Shown here one piece after another: positions 8,066 through 26,058 of a stretch of DNA of 36,707 nucleotides. Each line of letters starts with the position of its first letter. Position 1 is the stretch's first letter. The notes below the pieces were generated by a model. The model had not been told where the DNA came from. It worked only from the letters and a program-made list of their open reading frames with translations, and did not search any database. Made by a program: the position numbers and the translations under genes. This DNA is from Nitrospirota bacterium (GTDB lineage Bacteria; Nitrospirota; UBA9217): positions 1-36,707 of the forward strand of contig JAGVOT010000116.1 of assembly GCA_020052615.1 (NCBI GenBank), in the 5' to 3' direction.

Positions 8066-9085
8066 TTACAGATTCTTCCTGGCGTACGCCTCCAGCTTTT
8101 TCACCCGGCCCAGCAGCTTCTCGAACTCCCGGAAGTGGAGCGACTGGGCGCCGTCGGACAGGGCGTGCTCGGGCTCGGGATGGACCTCGATCATGGCGCC
8201 GTGGCTGCCGACCACCACCGACGCAAGTGCCGTCGGCGTCACCAGGTCGCGCTTTCCCGTCGCGTGGCTCGGGTCGAAGATGACGGGGAGGTGGGTCAGC
8301 TTCCTGACCAGCGGGATGATGGCAAGGTCGGCCGTGTTCCTCGTCGCCGTCTCGAAGGTCCGTATCCCCCGTTCGCACAGCACCACGTCGGAGTTGCCGT
8401 TCACGAGGATGTATTCCGCCGAGCCGAGCCACTCCTCCACCGTCGCAGAGAGGCCACGCTTCAGGATGACCGGTTTGCTGATCTTCCCGACCTCGGTCAG
8501 GAGGTCGAAGTTCTGCATGTTCCGCGCGCCGACCTGCAGGATGTCCACCTTGTCGGCCACGATCTCCACATGCTCGGGGCTCACGATCTCGGTAACCACG
8601 AGCAGGCCCGTCTCCCTGCGCACGTCATCGAGCAGGTCCAGGCCGCCCTCGCGCAGGCCCTGGAAGCTGTGCGGGCTTGTCCGGGGTTTGTACGCGCCGC
8701 CGCGAAGCACGGGAACACCCATCTTTTTCAGGAACTTCGCCGTCTTCATGAGCTGATCGCGGCTCTCCACAGCGCACGGTCCGGCGATCATCAGGAACGG
8801 GGACTTTCCACCCACCTTCACCTTGCCGCCGAGGGTCACGACCGTGTCGGCAGGATGGAAGTCGCGGCTCACCAGCTTGTAGGGCTTGGTGACATGGATG
8901 ATCTCCATGATGGCCTTATTGCCCTTGAGCGGCGTATCATCCACCCATCCCTGGTTGCCGATGACGCCGATGGCCGTCCTCTCGGCGCCGGGGATGGCCA
9001 CGGGCTTGAGGCCCATCCGGGTGATGATCTTCTTGATGTTCGCAACGTCCCTGGCAGAGGCCGTATGTTTCAGAACGATAAGCAT
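8066..9085 (-). CDS. aroF: 3-deoxy-7-phosphoheptulonate (DAHP) synthase, type I-beta
   Basis: A 339-residue protein starting at ATG after GGAGGG. It catalyses condensation of phosphoenolpyruvate and erythrose 4-phosphate, the first step of the shikimate pathway. Residues 1 to about 70 form the ferredoxin-like/ACT-type regulatory extension found in the I-beta subclass. The barrel shows AGPCAVESRDQL, LRGGAYKPRTSP, QVGARNMQNF, LKRGLSATVEEW and the metal-binding His of IFDPSHATGKR. The Cys of GPCAVE is the conserved metal ligand. The gene is alone; no other aromatic-pathway gene is next to it, so feedback by an aromatic amino acid is a family-based guess. Confidence 0.95.
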   Translation of the reverse strand: MLIVLKHTASARDVANIKKIITRMGLKPVAIPGAERTAIGVIGNQGWVDDTPLKGNKAIMEIIHVTKPYKLVSRDFHPADTVVTLGGKVKVGGKSPFLMIAGPCAVESRDQLMKTAKFLKKMGVPVLRGGAYKPRTSPHSFQGLREGGLDLLDDVRRETGLLVVTEIVSPEHVEIVADKVDILQVGARNMQNFDLLTEVGKISKPVILKRGLSATVEEWLGSAEYILVNGNSDVVLCERGIRTFETATRNTADLAIIPLVRKLTHLPVIFDPSHATGKRDLVTPTALASVVVGSHGAMIEVHPEPEHALSDGAQSLHFREFEKLLGRVKKLEAYARKNL

Positions 9086-9110: not shown

Positions 9111-9300
9111 ACCGCAGAGAGCGCAGAGAACGCGGAGGAAGCAAGGTACAACCTCCCATCACAATATCTCAGCAAACACATTACTTAATACAGGGCCAAA
9201 AGCTATACGGTATATCAAGAGTTAAACGAGAGCACATTCAGCCGCGGTTCGTAGCTGTAAATTATTTAAATACCTCTGCGAGCTCTGCGTTCTCTGCGGT
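9111..9300. repeat. Inverted-repeat unit (CCGCAGAGA family) with no gene inside
   Basis: The left arm 9111-9138 opens ACCGCAGAGAGCGCAGAGAA. The right arm 9273-9300, in reverse complement, opens ACCGCAGAGAACGCAGAGCT; the arms agree at most positions over 28 bases. The AT-richer core of about 134 bases has no open frame. The unit fills the gap between aroF and the tautomerase gene. Confidence 0.75.
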
Positions 9301-20429: not shown

Positions 20430-20527
20430 CATTGCGTGCGACCGACGGGAGCGCGGCAATCTCATCCCCTCGATAGAGATTGCTTCGTTATTTCATTCCC
20501 CGAAAAGGCCCCTCCTAAGTCGCAATG
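20430..20527. repeat. Nested inverted repeat (GCAATCTC / CATTGCG family)
   Basis: GCAATCTC (20456-20463) pairs perfectly with GAGATTGC (20476-20483). Outside it, CATTGCG (20430-20436) pairs with CGCAATG (20521-20527). The whole resembles the widespread CGTCATTGCGAGGAG... type of dispersed element. It fills the gspM-gspN gap. Confidence 0.65.
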
Positions 20528-20537
20528 CGAGGAGTCG

Positions 20538-21038
20538 TCATCCCGCGCTGGACACGAGAAGCGTTGCGTTCAGGAGCTTCGGGTTGTCGTACCGCGGCTT
20601 GAAGGAGAGCTTCCGGACGCGAAGCGTGGCTTTCTCCAGGAGAAAGACGTAATTCACTATGTCGTAGAGGGTGATATTGTCAAGCCTGATCTCGACGATG
20701 CTTTCCTTGTAGCCCGCGGTCTGGCTCCCCGTCTGGGGCTTGAGCGAGACGATCTTGCTGTTCAGGTTCGCCCGCTTCGTTATGTTCTCGATCTCCGTCA
20801 GCAGGGGGCCCCGCTTCGCGGCCGCCTCTTGGGCTGCCTGGAGCTCTTGCTGAATATCCCGGTATTCGTCGCGGAGCTTCTTCATCTCCACGAGATCGCG
20901 TTCCTTCCGGGGGATGAGGTCGCGTTTGCGCGATAGGTCCGCCAGGAACGGCGACAGGCCAAAGGCGTAAATCAGAATGACCGCCGCGACTGACCCGCCG
21001 ATGATGAGCGTCTTTTTATCCCGGGATTCTAACTTCAA
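20538..21038 (-). CDS. gspM: Type II secretion system protein GspM
   Basis: A 166-residue bitopic protein. A short cytoplasmic start is followed by a membrane helix (TLIIGGSVAAVILIYAFGL, about 10-28), a coiled coil (about 32-72, RKERDLVEMKKLRDEYRDIQ) and a ferredoxin-like periplasmic domain (ESIVEIRLDNITLYDIVNYV; LRVRKLSFKPRYDNP). GspM pairs with GspL in the inner-membrane platform. It should directly follow gspL, but 476 bases separate them because the GxxExxY repeat unit lies between. Its start, only 18 bases from the unit, lacks a strong ribosome site, so translational coupling to gspL may be lost. Confidence 0.85.
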   Translation of the reverse strand: MKLESRDKKTLIIGGSVAAVILIYAFGLSPFLADLSRKRDLIPRKERDLVEMKKLRDEYRDIQQELQAAQEAAAKRGPLLTEIENITKRANLNSKIVSLKPQTGSQTAGYKESIVEIRLDNITLYDIVNYVFLLEKATLRVRKLSFKPRYDNPKLLNATLLVSSAG

Positions 21039-21055
21039 ATAACACCTCTATGAGC

Positions 21056-21498
21056 AACCACAGATGAACACGGATTAACACAGTTAAACGACAAACCTCT
21101 CATACTCCAACTTTGGCTTCGCAAAATTAATACACAACCCCCCGTATGCCGGATATCCGCAAGTAGTTAAGCAGCTGTGCCCTATGGACGTCATCGATCC
21201 TGTCAACTGACTTAACTTCCACAATAACGTTACCTTCAACAACTAGGTCTGCGTAATAGAGGCCGACTTCTTTTTCACGGTAAACAACCTTGAATTCCTG
21301 TTGAAGAACGATTGCTCGTTTCTTTAATTCCAAATCCCAGGCAAGTGCGTTGCCGTAGACCTTTTCAAGCAGTCCACATCCCAAAATATTGTGCACGGCA
21401 AATGCAGAATTGATAACATCTCCTGTCAGTTCTTTGTGGAGAAATTCTTTCTCGGAATTCGTCATCTTTACTGTGTTAATCCGTGTTCATCTGTGGTT
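21056..21498. mobile_element. 443-base unit with perfect 29-base terminal inverted repeats, filled by a GxxExxY gene
   Basis: The left end (21056-21084) starts AACCACAGATGAACACGGAT and continues TAACACAGT. The right end (21470-21498) is its exact reverse complement, 29 of 29 bases. The repeat itself has an 11-12-base internal period (CACAGATGAA / CACGGATTAA). The only content is one gene on the minus strand; its ATG is four bases inside the right repeat, and its unshifted reading frame would end exactly at the inner edge of the left repeat. The unit occupies the gspL-gspM gap. No target-site duplication is visible and there is no transposase, so mobility is inferred from structure only. Confidence 0.6.
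21127..21465 (-). CDS. GxxExxY protein, PD-(D/E)XK nuclease-like, with probable C-terminal frameshift
   Basis: The open frame gives 112 residues. The family motif is seen as GLLEKVY near residue 31, in AVHNILGCGLLEKVYGNALA. The nuclease-like core YADLVVEGNVIVEVKSV has Asp...Glu-x-Lys. The frame stops after GIRGVVY at a run of six C on plus (21138-21143). Removing one base restores INFAKPKLEYERFVV, the usual end of this family, with a TAA at 21086-21084. So the gene is either slightly broken, phase-variable, or affected by an assembly indel. Function is unknown; the fold suggests a nuclease. There is no separate promoter: it probably depends on gsp read-through or on the repeat. Confidence 0.8.
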   Translation of the reverse strand: MTNSEKEFLHKELTGDVINSAFAVHNILGCGLLEKVYGNALAWDLELKKRAIVLQQEFKVVYREKEVGLYYADLVVEGNVIVEVKSVDRIDDVHRAQLLNYLRISGIRGVVY

Positions 21499-21514
21499 CC
21501 AATCGTGTTGACGG

Positions 21515-22840
21515 TTACATGCCCTGCTTCAGTTTGATCTCGAACCGGAACTTCACCTTGTTGTCCACGCCCATGCGGGTATCCTGCACCGTGACCTCGG
21601 CAAAAAGCGGCGACTTCTGGAGCTCGGCTTTGATCTTGTCAACGGAATCGAAGGACGACACCTCTCCCTGGAGCCTCAATCGTTCTCCTTCCAGGATGAA
21701 CTCAGTGAAGCCGACCCGGACCTCCTTCGGGATGCCGTCGGTGACCGTCTTCATCACGTCCAGGGCCGAGCTTCCCGAGCCCAGCGCGCCAAAGAGTTTC
21801 TTTGACTCGCTGATCTTGTCGCGCATCTGACGCACGGGATCTGCTGCCGGCCTTCCTTCGGGAAAGGTCTGGCGGTAGATCTCCTTGATCTCGGCATCGA
21901 GCTTTCCATAGCCTGATTGGACAATGTAGAATTTCACAACGATATTCACGGTGAACAGAACGGCCGCAACAGCCCCGGCGATGATAAGAATGCGCCTTTT
22001 GCGGCGCGTGCCCTCGTCCGCCAGCTTGTATGCGAATTCGCCCTTGCGAAGGTTCACGCCGTCAAGGAGCGCGATGCCCAGGCTCGCCGGGTCCTGCGCC
22101 TTCTTTCCGTTGATCTCGGGAAGGATCAGATCGACGGCCACGCCGGCTTCGGTCAGGACAGCCCGGCTGACCTCATCGTCGATCAGCAGCGTTGCCTTCT
22201 CGACCTTTTCCTTGTGTTCGTTCTCGAACGCCTGAAGAACGTGGCGAAGGCCGCCGGTTGACTGACTGCCGGAAAAACTTCGGAGGCCTTTCAGGGCACC
22301 GTCATGGCGGAAACACATATCGGGACCGCAGAGCAGCAGAGAACCGGTATCCTTCGGCATCATATTCGCGACCGCAGAGAGCCCGGCATAGGACGGAACG
22401 ATCACTTGCGGATCGATCCCCGCGTCCGCAAGCAGGTCCAGATGCTGCCGCAGGACCGTCTTCGGCAGCATCATGCAGAGCACCTGGGTCGCCGTGTCCT
22501 TCTTCGCCGTCGCGCTCTCCAGCACCAGGTGGTCAAGCACGACGTCGTCGAGGTCGAAGGGCACGAGGTCCTCGACCTCGAAGGGCAGGGCCTTCTCGAT
22601 GCGCTTCCGGTCGGCAAAGGGAAGCGTGAGCGTCCGCTGGGTGAAGAAGTGGCCCGGAATGGACGAAACGATCTTCGCGCCCGCCCAGTCCTTCGACCGC
22701 TCCTTGAGGATGTCCACGAGCTCGGCATCGGTCGCAAAGGGCCGGCTGAACGAGTCCACCAGTTCCGTCCGGCGGAAGTCCTTCTGCACGACCGCCGCGG
22801 CAACAAGCCCTTTCTCTATTTTAAGACCGACGATCTTCAC
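21515..22840 (-). CDS. gspL: Type II secretion system protein GspL
   Basis: A 441-residue protein. The cytoplasmic part (1 to about 280) is the actin-like, PilM-related domain: MKIVGLKIEKGLVAAAVVQK, the ERSKDWAGAKIVSSIPG strand, and LPFEVEDLVPFDLDDVVLDH. A membrane helix follows (RRILIIAGAVAAVLFTVNIV). The periplasmic part contains a ferredoxin-like domain (GIPKEVRVGFTEFILEGERL). GspL links the ATPase GspE to the platform through its cytoplasmic domain and binds GspM. The start overlaps the gspK stop by four bases. Sequence conservation is modest, but architecture and position are clear. Confidence 0.87.
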   Translation of the reverse strand: MKIVGLKIEKGLVAAAVVQKDFRRTELVDSFSRPFATDAELVDILKERSKDWAGAKIVSSIPGHFFTQRTLTLPFADRKRIEKALPFEVEDLVPFDLDDVVLDHLVLESATAKKDTATQVLCMMLPKTVLRQHLDLLADAGIDPQVIVPSYAGLSAVANMMPKDTGSLLLCGPDMCFRHDGALKGLRSFSGSQSTGGLRHVLQAFENEHKEKVEKATLLIDDEVSRAVLTEAGVAVDLILPEINGKKAQDPASLGIALLDGVNLRKGEFAYKLADEGTRRKRRILIIAGAVAAVLFTVNIVVKFYIVQSGYGKLDAEIKEIYRQTFPEGRPAADPVRQMRDKISESKKLFGALGSGSSALDVMKTVTDGIPKEVRVGFTEFILEGERLRLQGEVSSFDSVDKIKAELQKSPLFAEVTVQDTRMGVDNKVKFRFEIKLKQGM

Positions 22841-23691: not shown

Positions 23692-24440
23692 CACTGTCTA
23701 TTTCCGACATCCACCCTTGCAGTGTACAATTTACCAGTATCAAGAACGAGTGCTATTTCCACTGCCTTAGGCAGTCTCCCCACTGATTTGCTGTCCCACC
23801 CATCATCAGCCCATGTTGATCCGTTATCAGAATACGTAAATTGAAGGCTCTCCACCCGGTCCGTGATCTCGTACTCGACCCCTCCTTCAAGTGCCGGGCT
23901 GTCCTGGCTGAGCTCTCGCTTTTCCCTCCGGTAGAGAATGAATCCCTTCCCATCCGGTTGCTCCTTGAAAAAGTAGCCCACTTCCCAGAGTTCCGTCTCC
24001 TTGGAATCGGGTTTGCGCCAGTTCGTCAGAGTGGTAAGGTTGATGCTGTCATGCCTGATCTTCTCGTTCCCCGGCCCCGACCCGAACTCCGCCTCTTCCT
24101 TTTTGCCGTAAAATATCGTTAGTATCTTTGGTGAATTCATGCTGGAATTCATATACGCATTGGCTATGTCAACCGAAAGCCGGGCGATCAGCGTGCGCGC
24201 GAGATCGGTCTCATCCCGGATCGTCTCTGCCTGTTCAACGTTCTTTCCCGCCGTGGAAAAGCTCGCATAGACCACGGTCATGATCAGGGAAAGGATCGCC
24301 ATGGCAAGGAGTACTTCGAGGAGGGTAAAACCCCTCGATTGCGGATTGCGGATTGCGGATTGCGGAGTTAAACCAATATCTGTTGACTTTGGTCCAAAAT
24401 CCGAAATCCGAAATCCGAAATCCGCAATGGCTCTATTCAT
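23691..24440 (-). CDS. gspJ: Type II secretion system minor pseudopilin GspJ with repeat-encoded leader
   Basis: A 249-residue protein. The cut site and N-helix are RG|FTLLEVLLAMAILSLIM, with Glu at +5. The start ATG at 24440 overlaps the gspI stop by eight bases (ATGAATAG), which strongly supports translation from there. The leader is then 37 residues, far longer than the usual 5-10, and is made of DNA repeats: AIADFGFRISDFG and PQSAIRNPQS come from 7-base tandem units. The head domain (WRKPDSKETELWEVGYFFKE and YRREKRELSQDSPALEGG) fits GspJ. With GspI and GspK it forms the tip of the pseudopilus. The prepilin peptidase is not in this window. Confidence 0.88.
   Translation of the reverse strand: MNRAIADFGFRISDFGPKSTDIGLTPQSAIRNPQSRGFTLLEVLLAMAILSLIMTVVYASFSTAGKNVEQAETIRDETDLARTLIARLSVDIANAYMNSSMNSPKILTIFYGKKEEAEFGSGPGNEKIRHDSINLTTLTNWRKPDSKETELWEVGYFFKEQPDGKGFILYRREKRELSQDSPALEGGVEYEITDRVESLQFTYSDNGSTWADDGWDSKSVGRLPKAVEIALVLDTGKLYTARVDVGNRQ
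24337..24428. repeat. Inverted arms of 7-base tandem repeats inside the gspJ leader
   Basis: The left arm (24337-24365) is GATTGCG repeated four times. The right arm (24398-24428) is AATCCGA-type units ending in TCCGCAAT, in the opposite orientation. The 32-base spacer between them is unrelated. Both arms are translated as part of GspJ. Confidence 0.85.
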
Positions 24441-24882
24441 AGCTCTTCAACTCCACCATCTCCTGCCGTTCGCCTTCCTTCCAGAGCACCGCCACCCGCA
24501 CTTCAGTGATCGTTACATTTTCCACCGGCTGCAGCTGGGAGATCGATTCCTTCCACGTATAGTCCTTGAACTCTTCCTCCGGGAACTCGCCTTCATCCTC
24601 TTTCTGAAAGACGGTTCGGGTACCCACGGTCACCAGGTTTTCGTTCATTTTGCGCGTTGCCAGCAGCGTCGCGGTCGTGATGTGGTCCGCAAGCATCACA
24701 TCCTGCATGCTCCTGTTCTTCAATCCGATCAGCGACACCAGAACCATGCCCAGGATGGCCACCGCGACCATGACTTCGAGAAGGGTGAAGGCTTTCGATT
24801 GCGGATTTCGGATTGCGGGTTTCGGATTTAAATCCGCTTTACGCAATTCGCAATTCGCAATCCGCAATCCGCAATTGGTCAT
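24433..24882 (-). CDS. gspI: Type II secretion system minor pseudopilin GspI with repeat-encoded leader
   Basis: A 149-residue protein. ATG at 24882 overlaps the gspH stop (AGATGACC) and follows a GGAGGAGAG ribosome site. The cut site and helix are SKA|FTLLEVMVAVAILGMVL, with Ala instead of Gly at -1 and Glu at +5. The leader is about 31 residues and includes CGLRIANCEL and KPAIRNPQS, both encoded by the 7-base repeats. The head (VTVGTRTVFQKEDEGEFPEE, ENVTITEVRVAVLWKEGERQ) fits GspI. An Ala at -1 is tolerated by prepilin peptidases in some pilins but is unusual. GspI nucleates the GspI-J-K tip complex. Confidence 0.88.
   Translation of the reverse strand: MTNCGLRIANCELRKADLNPKPAIRNPQSKAFTLLEVMVAVAILGMVLVSLIGLKNRSMQDVMLADHITTATLLATRKMNENLVTVGTRTVFQKEDEGEFPEEEFKDYTWKESISQLQPVENVTITEVRVAVLWKEGERQEMVELKSYE
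24797..24877. repeat. Inverted arms of 7-base tandem repeats inside the gspI leader
   Basis: The left arm (24797-24829) consists of GATTGCG/GATTTCG units. The right arm (about 24841-24877) consists of CGCAATT/CGCAATC units in the opposite orientation, with about 12 bases between. Both arms lie within the coding sequence after the gspI ATG. Confidence 0.85.
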
Positions 24883-25448
24883 CTCTCCTCCACATAACCT
24901 TCGCGGAGCTCGGTATTCGCGGTGAGCGGCTTCACGAGCAGGGAAAAATCGCGGTCGCTGCCGTCGCGGAGATGGATGATTGCATGCTCCACCCATCCGT
25001 CGGGCGTGAACAGGATATAGGGATCATCCGGGTGACTGCCGGCCTGAATATCGCGAAACGTGGTCTGGCCAAAAAGACTTCCTTCCCCCCCGATGACCGA
25101 CGTCGTCTTTTGGAACTCTCCCGTACTTTCCGAAAGCTGCGAAAATGTTTCAGCCCAGTAGCGGCCGTCCTGGATATCGAACCTGAGACGATATTCTGTC
25201 TTCTTCGCCTGGGACTCCTCATGGAGGAAACGGATCATGCCCGTGAGGTGCCTGGCGCTCCGCTTCAAATTGGCTTCGCCGAGCTCGCCGAGCATCGGGG
25301 CGACAAGGGCGATCATGACCCCGAGGATCGCAATGACGACCGCGAGTTCGATAAGGGTAAAGCCTTTCGATTGCGAATTGCGAATTGCGGATTGCGGAAT
25401 ATGAATCCGTTCTCTCAAGGCTCCTGTTTTACCTTTCGCACTTCGCAC
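24879..25448 (-). CDS. gspH: Type II secretion system minor pseudopilin GspH with repeat-encoded leader
   Basis: About 189 residues if the GTG at 25448 is used; a TTG ten codons later, behind AGGAG, is the other candidate. No ATG lies between the gspG stop and the cut site. The cut site and helix are SKG|FTLIELAVVIAILGVMI, with Glu at +5. The leader contains IPQSAIRNSQS, encoded by the same repeats as in gspI and gspJ. The head domain (LKRSARHLTGMIRFLHEESQ and EYRLRFDIQDGRYWAETFSQ) is typical of GspH/FimT. It lies 20 bases after gspG and overlaps gspI by four bases. The start codon is uncertain. Confidence 0.85.
   Translation of the reverse strand: MRSAKGKTGALRERIHIPQSAIRNSQSKGFTLIELAVVIAILGVMIALVAPMLGELGEANLKRSARHLTGMIRFLHEESQAKKTEYRLRFDIQDGRYWAETFSQLSESTGEFQKTTSVIGGEGSLFGQTTFRDIQAGSHPDDPYILFTPDGWVEHAIIHLRDGSDRDFSLLVKPLTANTELREGYVEER
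25369..25399. repeat. 7-base tandem repeat arm in the gspH leader
   Basis: GATTGCGAATTGCGAATTGC and onward, about four units, in left-arm orientation. Its opposite-orientation partner may be the arm at 26026-26058, which would make the two flank gspG. The gspH start region just before it (25430-25458) also carries the simple repeat GTGACGAGTGCGAAGTGCG on the minus strand. Confidence 0.8.
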
Positions 25449-25927: not shown

Positions 25928-26058
25928 TAACCACAGATGTACACGGGCGGAACCACGTTCGTAGGGGCGGCCCTGCGTGGCCGCCCGCATGAGGGCAACC
26001 ACATAGGGTTGCCCCTACAAGTTTTCAATCCGCAATCCGAAATCCGCAATTCGCAATC
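25928..26058. repeat. Composite repeat block in the gspF-gspG gap
   Basis: Three families are stacked. First a single arm starting AACCACAGATGTACACGG (25929-25946), related to the ends of the 21056-21498 unit. Second an inverted repeat GTAGGGGC (25961-25968) / GCCCCTAC (26011-26018) with GGGCAACCACATAGGGTTGC inside. Third a right-arm copy of the 7-base family (CAATCCGCAATCCGAAATCC, 26026-26058). No coding potential is seen. Confidence 0.75.

Follow-up and report, generated by a model that had tools for sequence, protein, structure and literature searches.

A short gene of the GxxExxY family lies between gspL and gspM in the 36,707-nucleotide stretch of a Nitrospirota bacterium genome analyzed here (the window), enclosed by a long inverted repeat. 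What kind of object do this gene and its repeat form together, and how did it come to lie between two genes of the gsp operon? The original prediction, made from the sequence of the window, envisaged a tiny mobile or self-propagating element with a nuclease-like protein that might act on the repeat enclosing its gene. The features that bear on this question are collected in Table 1.

Table 1. The repeat-bounded GxxExxY unit, its neighbors, and related elements, in window positions.
Feature	Position	Strand	Description
Left arm (3' end of gene)	21056-21087	+	Heptamers CACAGAT 21059-21065, CACGGAT 21069-21075, CACAGTT 21079-21085; 10-bp period
Right arm (5' end of gene)	21467-21498	-	Inverted copy of left arm; heptamers 21489-21495, 21479-21485, 21469-21475
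GxxExxY (TIGR04256 / PF13366 PDDEXK_3) ORF, 112 aa	21127-21465	-	Assigned by profile scores; core PD-(D/E)XK residues kept
Out-of-frame C-terminus remnant (NFAKPKLEYERFVV stop)	21084-21126	-	Stop in inner edge of left arm
gspL, upstream neighbor	21515-22840	-	Profile match
gspM, downstream neighbor	20538-21038	-	Profile match
Single degenerate arm, CACRGAT type	25931-25948	+	3 mismatches in 18
Gene-less element, same class	9113-9298		CGCAGAG-type arms 9113-9137 (+) and 9274-9298 (-); 136-bp interior without GxxExxY gene

The two arms are complementary at 31 of 32 positions and share an uninterrupted core of 29 bases, the latter being the repeat that had been predicted around the gene; the probability that two such arms lie within 1 kb of each other in the window by chance is ~1e-10. 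The identity of the gene was likewise predicted correctly, its profile scores far exceeding the cut-offs of both TIGR04256 (105.3 bits versus 35) and PF13366 (104.3 bits versus 22), and it is the only gene between the arms, with no DDE transposase beside it. The whole unit, ~440 bases from arm to arm, does separate gspL from gspM, and its interior has a G+C content of 44%, compared with 58 to 60% for these neighbors. A lone related arm, expected near 25929-25946, is present in degenerate form. Tandem arrays of a 7-bp repeat (GATTGCG or GATTTCG and their complements), which precede several pseudopilin genes of the gsp operon and form many long inverted pairs, constitute a separate repeat family in the window (24337-24366, 24797-24876, 25370-25396, and 26026-26058).

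The gene was also thought to fill the interior from wall to wall. This holds at its 5' end, where the ATG is 1 base from the 32-nucleotide arm and 4 bases from the 29-nucleotide core, but not at its 3' end: the in-frame stop (21127-21129) is separated from the left arm by ~40 bases. Two bases are missing from the window gene in comparison with its relatives, which accounts for this early stop. As a result of this deletion, the conserved tail, NFAKPKLEYERFVV*, is shifted into another frame, to which alone the stop at the left-arm edge (21084-21086) belongs, and the protein has lost its C-terminal strand. This frameshift makes it probable that the unit in the window is inactive, a dead or dying copy.

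The arrangement recurs around other genes of the family. We surveyed 195 GxxExxY genes, mostly from the family and phylum of the window's genome, Bacteroidota, and Verrucomicrobiota, using a sequence-free test in which the upstream flank is locally aligned with the reverse complement of the downstream flank. An inverted-repeat score of at least 14 was reached by 57% of these genes; among the controls, the proportion was 0.9% for shifted windows (n = 1009) and 1.0% for cross-pairs (n = 971). The arms share a grammar of two to three tandem heptamers of the form C-R-C-N-R-A-D, facing outward with a period of 8 to 10 bp. With this pattern, which was defined from the first 118 loci after inspecting them, tandem outward heptamers are found on both flanks of 52% of the genes versus 0.14% of control windows, and the two arms carry an identical heptamer in 72% of units, versus 9% when arms from two different units are compared. 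Among 71 held-out loci that were fetched later, heptamers on both sides occur at 51% and an inverted repeat at 61%; the corresponding values for a hold-out set of 61 loci are 38% and 57%. On this comparison, the inverted repeat and GxxExxY gene of the window belong to a large class of such units.

Inverted repeats are common beside genes, and the RNA of the window unit folds strongly (z -5.8), as a chance pairing or a plain hairpin or terminator-like structure beside an ordinary gene might lead one to expect; a search of positions 20500 to 22000 against Rfam returned no RNA family. Such an explanation can be given almost no weight in view of the 1% background of bracketing in the controls, the length and matching of the arms, and a heptamer grammar that is common to several phyla.

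Other searches returned fewer loci. A scan of contigs with a single protein recovered only seven relatives, two of them in members of the same family (G001 and G004), and a profile scan of viral contigs based on a narrow alignment found a single locus (L340), where matched arms likewise flank the gene. Two further GxxExxY genes (L178 and L240) are flanked by long inverted repeats of another kind, ~40 to 47 bp in length, that include AAAACCGCTTCGCGGACA or a close variant and contain no heptamers. Close pairs of GxxExxY genes occur in several genomes (L006 and L007, at G000:C4:1192 and 2827; also L044, L144, and L180), and matches to PF13366 that fall within an open frame of 883 residues (G091:C9:91047, G119:C1:72351, and G103:C22:338274) possibly represent either a fusion or a long frame that is open by chance. 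A search of the open-licence literature brought up neither a function for the GxxExxY family nor any account of bracketing repeats, with an earlier description remaining conceivable; repeat strings tried against the same literature gave no mention, and the family itself is mentioned only incidentally.

The genome from which the window derives contains eight PF13366 genes, one of which is split. The 18-base core of the arm occurs in this genome 33 times at up to 3 mismatches, compared with no occurrence of the reversed control. Further copies of the repeat end, which the original prediction proposed to search for, are thus found, but they do not flank other genes of the family: the window's own repeat has no match around the other seven PF13366 genes, and only the window gene has that arm. 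This comparison gives a false impression, since the heptamer differs from unit to unit; in the sequence-free test, most of the other genes have arms of their own.

Arms also pair up without a gene between them. The gene-less element in the window (Table 1) lies directly upstream of a reverse-strand ORF (8066-9085) that reads like a putative DAHP synthase. Gene-less copies were counted on 400-kb genome samples, and that of the window's genome contains 47 heptamer arrays, compared with 3 to 6 in shuffled sequence, and ten outward-facing matched pairs, one of which is a GxxExxY unit and nine of which are gene-less, with loops of 33 to 94 bp. Five genomes of the family have 77 arrays, with 20 matched pairs facing outward versus 1 inward. 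Seven PF13366-negative genomes of the phylum contain 4 arrays and no matched pair, a contrast that is confounded with phylogeny because these genomes belong to other families.

Outside the phylum, triple arrays of the CACAGAG type were present in 27 of 52 gene-positive and 2 of 63 gene-negative genomes among 115 Verrucomicrobiota (Fisher p 1.3e-9), with 236 of 243 copies residing in gene-positive genomes. In the spacers between heptamers, too, 44 of 47 copies match the resident unit, versus 39 of 235 comparisons with the units of other genomes. The CACAGAT type in Bacteroidota follows the same direction, clearly more weakly (5 of 60 versus 1 of 58). Dispersal of the repeats without any association to such genes would have spoken against the predicted unit; they are indeed found genome-wide, but with a strong association to the gene at the level of genomes. 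Arrays without a detected gene occur in two Verrucomicrobiota and one Bacteroidota genome (G189, G253, and G110). The array loci of G253 and G110 were checked for a GxxExxY remnant and contained none, and inspection by eye of the loops of gene-less elements revealed no evident gene remnants. At one locus of G110 (L439, C46:166438-166986), a genome in which no PF13366 gene was detected, CACAGAT triple arrays are clustered. Several CACAGAG-type arrays in G220 (C12:5291-6510 and C48) face one direction only and are spaced ~200 to 380 bp apart, unlike the usual inverted pairs.

The type of arm changes with the protein. Counting only pairs of units at different sites, the mean heptamer difference falls from ~2.6 at 25 to 35% protein identity to ~1.0 at 55 to 70%, a correlation that points indirectly to recognition of the heptamer by the GxxExxY protein. 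At single positions, all 56 units with Thr in the T13 column have G as the fifth heptamer base (raw counts; z = 18). In phylogenetically independent contrasts, columns 10, 13, 15, and 17 of the N-terminal helix rank among the strongest for positions 4, 5, and 2 of the heptamer, the top contrasts having 13 to 14 concordant and 1 to 2 discordant pairs; none of the residue-heptamer covariations is significant after correction for 496 tests. In a small hold-out sample, base 5 was predicted correctly from the T13 column in 17 of 23 cases, compared with 11 for the baseline and 14 for the nearest neighbor. This covariation is suggestive of a direct reading of the heptamer by the protein. The pairing of heptamer base 7 with residues N99 or L31, which is strong in raw counts, comes down to 4 to 6 independent contrasts and was set aside as a clade-level signal.

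These data also bear on whether another enzyme moves the repeat family and the gene travels with it as a passenger, as would be the case for a MITE with a captured gene. Gene-less copies do outnumber gene-bearing ones, and some PF13366 genes have no arm that is detectable in the inverted-repeat scan, both of which a passenger would accommodate. This explanation is nonetheless very improbable, because it is a single gene family rather than random cargo that is bracketed in at least three phyla, because the arm type follows protein similarity, and because the repeats are nearly absent from gene-negative genomes.

Annotation of the GxxExxY family extends to a nuclease superfamily only. An AlphaFold model of an intact relative (L073), for which the alignment was limited to the window protein and related loci, has a pLDDT of 93.7 and a pTM of 0.86, and the closest solved folds are SSO0001 (PDB: 4ic1, Z 10.4), BpuSI (3s1s, 8.3), and Hjc (1gef, 7.5). 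A sequence search of the PDB identified no solved relative and nothing above noise. Among anti-phage defense families, the only matches are weak ones to Cas4 (best E 4e-4 for L073 and 0.008 for the window protein), and no partner genes are found between the arms. Across 57 members, G28, G30, D72, E82, K84, and Q96 are invariant, and E33 and Y36 are present in at least 90%, so that the nuclease residues E33, D72, E82-x-K84, and Q96-x3-Y100 (L073 numbering) are invariant or nearly so; the window copy retains the G-x-x-E-x-x-Y motif and all of the PD-(D/E)XK residues. From this model, the GxxExxY protein is predicted to be a small PD-(D/E)XK nuclease.

Comparison of four related Bacteroidota genomes, with flanks that are 88 to 96% identical, reveals turnover of whole units. 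G091 and G119 contain unit B, whereas G103 and G165 lack both the unit and its arms at a site with flanks that are 93 to 96% identical; unit C is intact in three genomes and represented by a gene-less palindrome in G119; and unit A in G103 has lost most of its gene, leaving arm traces behind. Some units lie within operons, such as that between fabD and fabG in Sphingomonas, or adjoin radA, as in Bacteroides finegoldii. Many occupy a shared site in related genera, and movement therefore appears to be rare. With units in only 8 of 72,556 plasmid records and 0 of 50,697 phages, horizontal movement would not proceed via the usual carriers.

The gspL-gspM site itself contains a unit in the window's genome (G000) and in G001, G004, and G008, with a frameshift in G000 and G008, an arm trace only in G002, and nothing in G003. 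In G005 and G007 (L082 and L093), the same gap has CACGAAT-type arms without a GxxExxY gene. Judging from these occurrences, the gap looks like a hotspot for elements of this type. Within the one genus that comprises G000 and G001, pS of the GxxExxY genes is saturated at 0.75 (0.60-0.88; pN/pS 0.21), whereas it is 0.38 (0.32-0.44) for gspL and 0.42 (0.33-0.51) for gspM, a comparison that may be affected by the difference in GC3 (0.46 for GxxExxY versus ~0.8 for the gsp genes); pN/pS ranges from 0.13 to 0.22. Given this difference in saturation, it is unlikely that the two genomes have inherited the same copy since the genus split, and the site would instead have been refilled or the copy replaced. 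Comparison of the gspL-gspM gap in relatives had been proposed to expose empty sites and target duplications. A unit-free gap is indeed seen (G003), but direct repeats at 63 unit ends are not above those in shuffled flanks. Diverged ends at a common site, which would have spoken against the predicted unit, are not the pattern found: each recurring copy has matched ends, and its history is not one of simple vertical descent.

A DNA-binding regulator or chromosome organizer could produce part of this picture, the palindromes being operators of the self-regulated gene and of its regulon, with copies spread by ordinary recombination or foreign transposases. The placement of arms directly at the start codon, the dispersed gene-less copies, purifying selection on the protein (pN/pS 0.13-0.22), and the frequent retention of units at one site across genera would all be compatible with operators. 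We consider this unlikely, however, since whole units with their arms are missing from otherwise identical operon sites, divergent copies reoccupy one site, the gene often decays while its arms stay behind, and the nuclease residues (E, D, ExK, and QxxxY) are invariant. PD-(D/E)XK folds are found in some homing enzymes, and the gene-less palindrome might alternatively be the target, with GxxExxY a homing-endonuclease gene that inserts into repeats bearing its heptamers. The gene-free genome that keeps a palindrome at the site of unit C would fit such insertion, as would the divergent units and gene-less arms that occupy the gspL-gspM gap in different genera. The state of unit C could equally reflect deletion of the gene through recombination at direct copies of a single arm, however, and the empty sites of unit B have no palindrome of any kind. 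Like the operator explanation, homing is considered unlikely.

Among known systems, the closest parallel in organization is REPIN/RAYT (TnpA-REP, or "REPtrons"), in which a gene is bordered by palindromic repeats, many non-autonomous inverted pairs lie between genes, the repeat type and the cognate protein co-vary, and REPs are processed as single-stranded hairpins by the RAYTs, which are tyrosine enzymes of the HuH type (PMC3116915, PMC8266576, PMC2817692). The GxxExxY gene is similarly bordered by palindromic repeats and has dispersed gene-less inverted pairs. Unlike a RAYT system, however, the unit has no HuH (Y1) transposase, its sole protein being PF13366/TIGR04256, with ~125 residues and a predicted PD-(D/E)XK fold, and unlike REPs, its arms consist of two to three tandem CRCNRAD heptamers. 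By analogy, the best reading is a system that acts like RAYT-REPIN with an unrelated enzyme. The predicted fold and the catalytic layout (E, D, ExK, and QxxxY) are shared with Cas4/RecB-like QxxxY nucleases and Hjc resolvases, from which the GxxExxY protein differs in its much smaller size, in the lack of a sequence match above noise, and in having no partner genes inside the unit. Terminal inverted repeats and short gene-less copies are also typical of MITEs and classical TIR insertion sequences, but the GxxExxY unit has neither a DDE transposase nor target-site duplications above chance.

The architecture of the unit, the matching of its arms, the gene-less copies, the dependence of the repeats on the gene at genome level, the presence or absence of whole units at a site, and the predicted PD-(D/E)XK fold with its catalytic motif are established from sequence. 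These comparative data are best read as the tiny mobile or self-propagating unit of the original prediction, with a protein acting on its own repeat. This reading rests on arms that occur in several phyla, match within a unit, track the protein, recur as gene-less copies, and are cleanly missing from empty sites. We put at roughly 60% the probability that the window feature is a minimal unit of this kind, an arm, a GxxExxY gene, and an inverted arm, spreading by means of its nuclease and accompanied by gene-less copies. The cutting, the movement, and the route of copying are what we infer from these patterns: the GxxExxY protein would recognize the tandem heptamers of its own arms, and would cut or nick DNA at these sites, probably in the fold-back structure formed by the inverted arms. 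Host repair or recombination would then copy the whole unit to new intergenic sites, and shorter gene-less palindromes with matching arms would be copied likewise. The window copy would have been acquired at gspL-gspM independently of the G001 copy, or replaced relative to it. More tentatively, the units may be autonomous mobile elements of ~440 bp, among the smallest known, each consisting of a lone nuclease with a readable residue-to-base heptamer specificity and acting as a founder of dispersed palindromes.

If this reading is correct, it would provide a function for PF13366, a very common and essentially unstudied family, and would explain a large body of hitherto unexplained dispersed intergenic repeats in several phyla. 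It would also present a second, unrelated answer to the problem posed by RAYT-REPIN systems, namely how a small nuclease spreads its palindromes, and because many natural protein-heptamer pairs exist, sequence recognition in this family would be directly testable.
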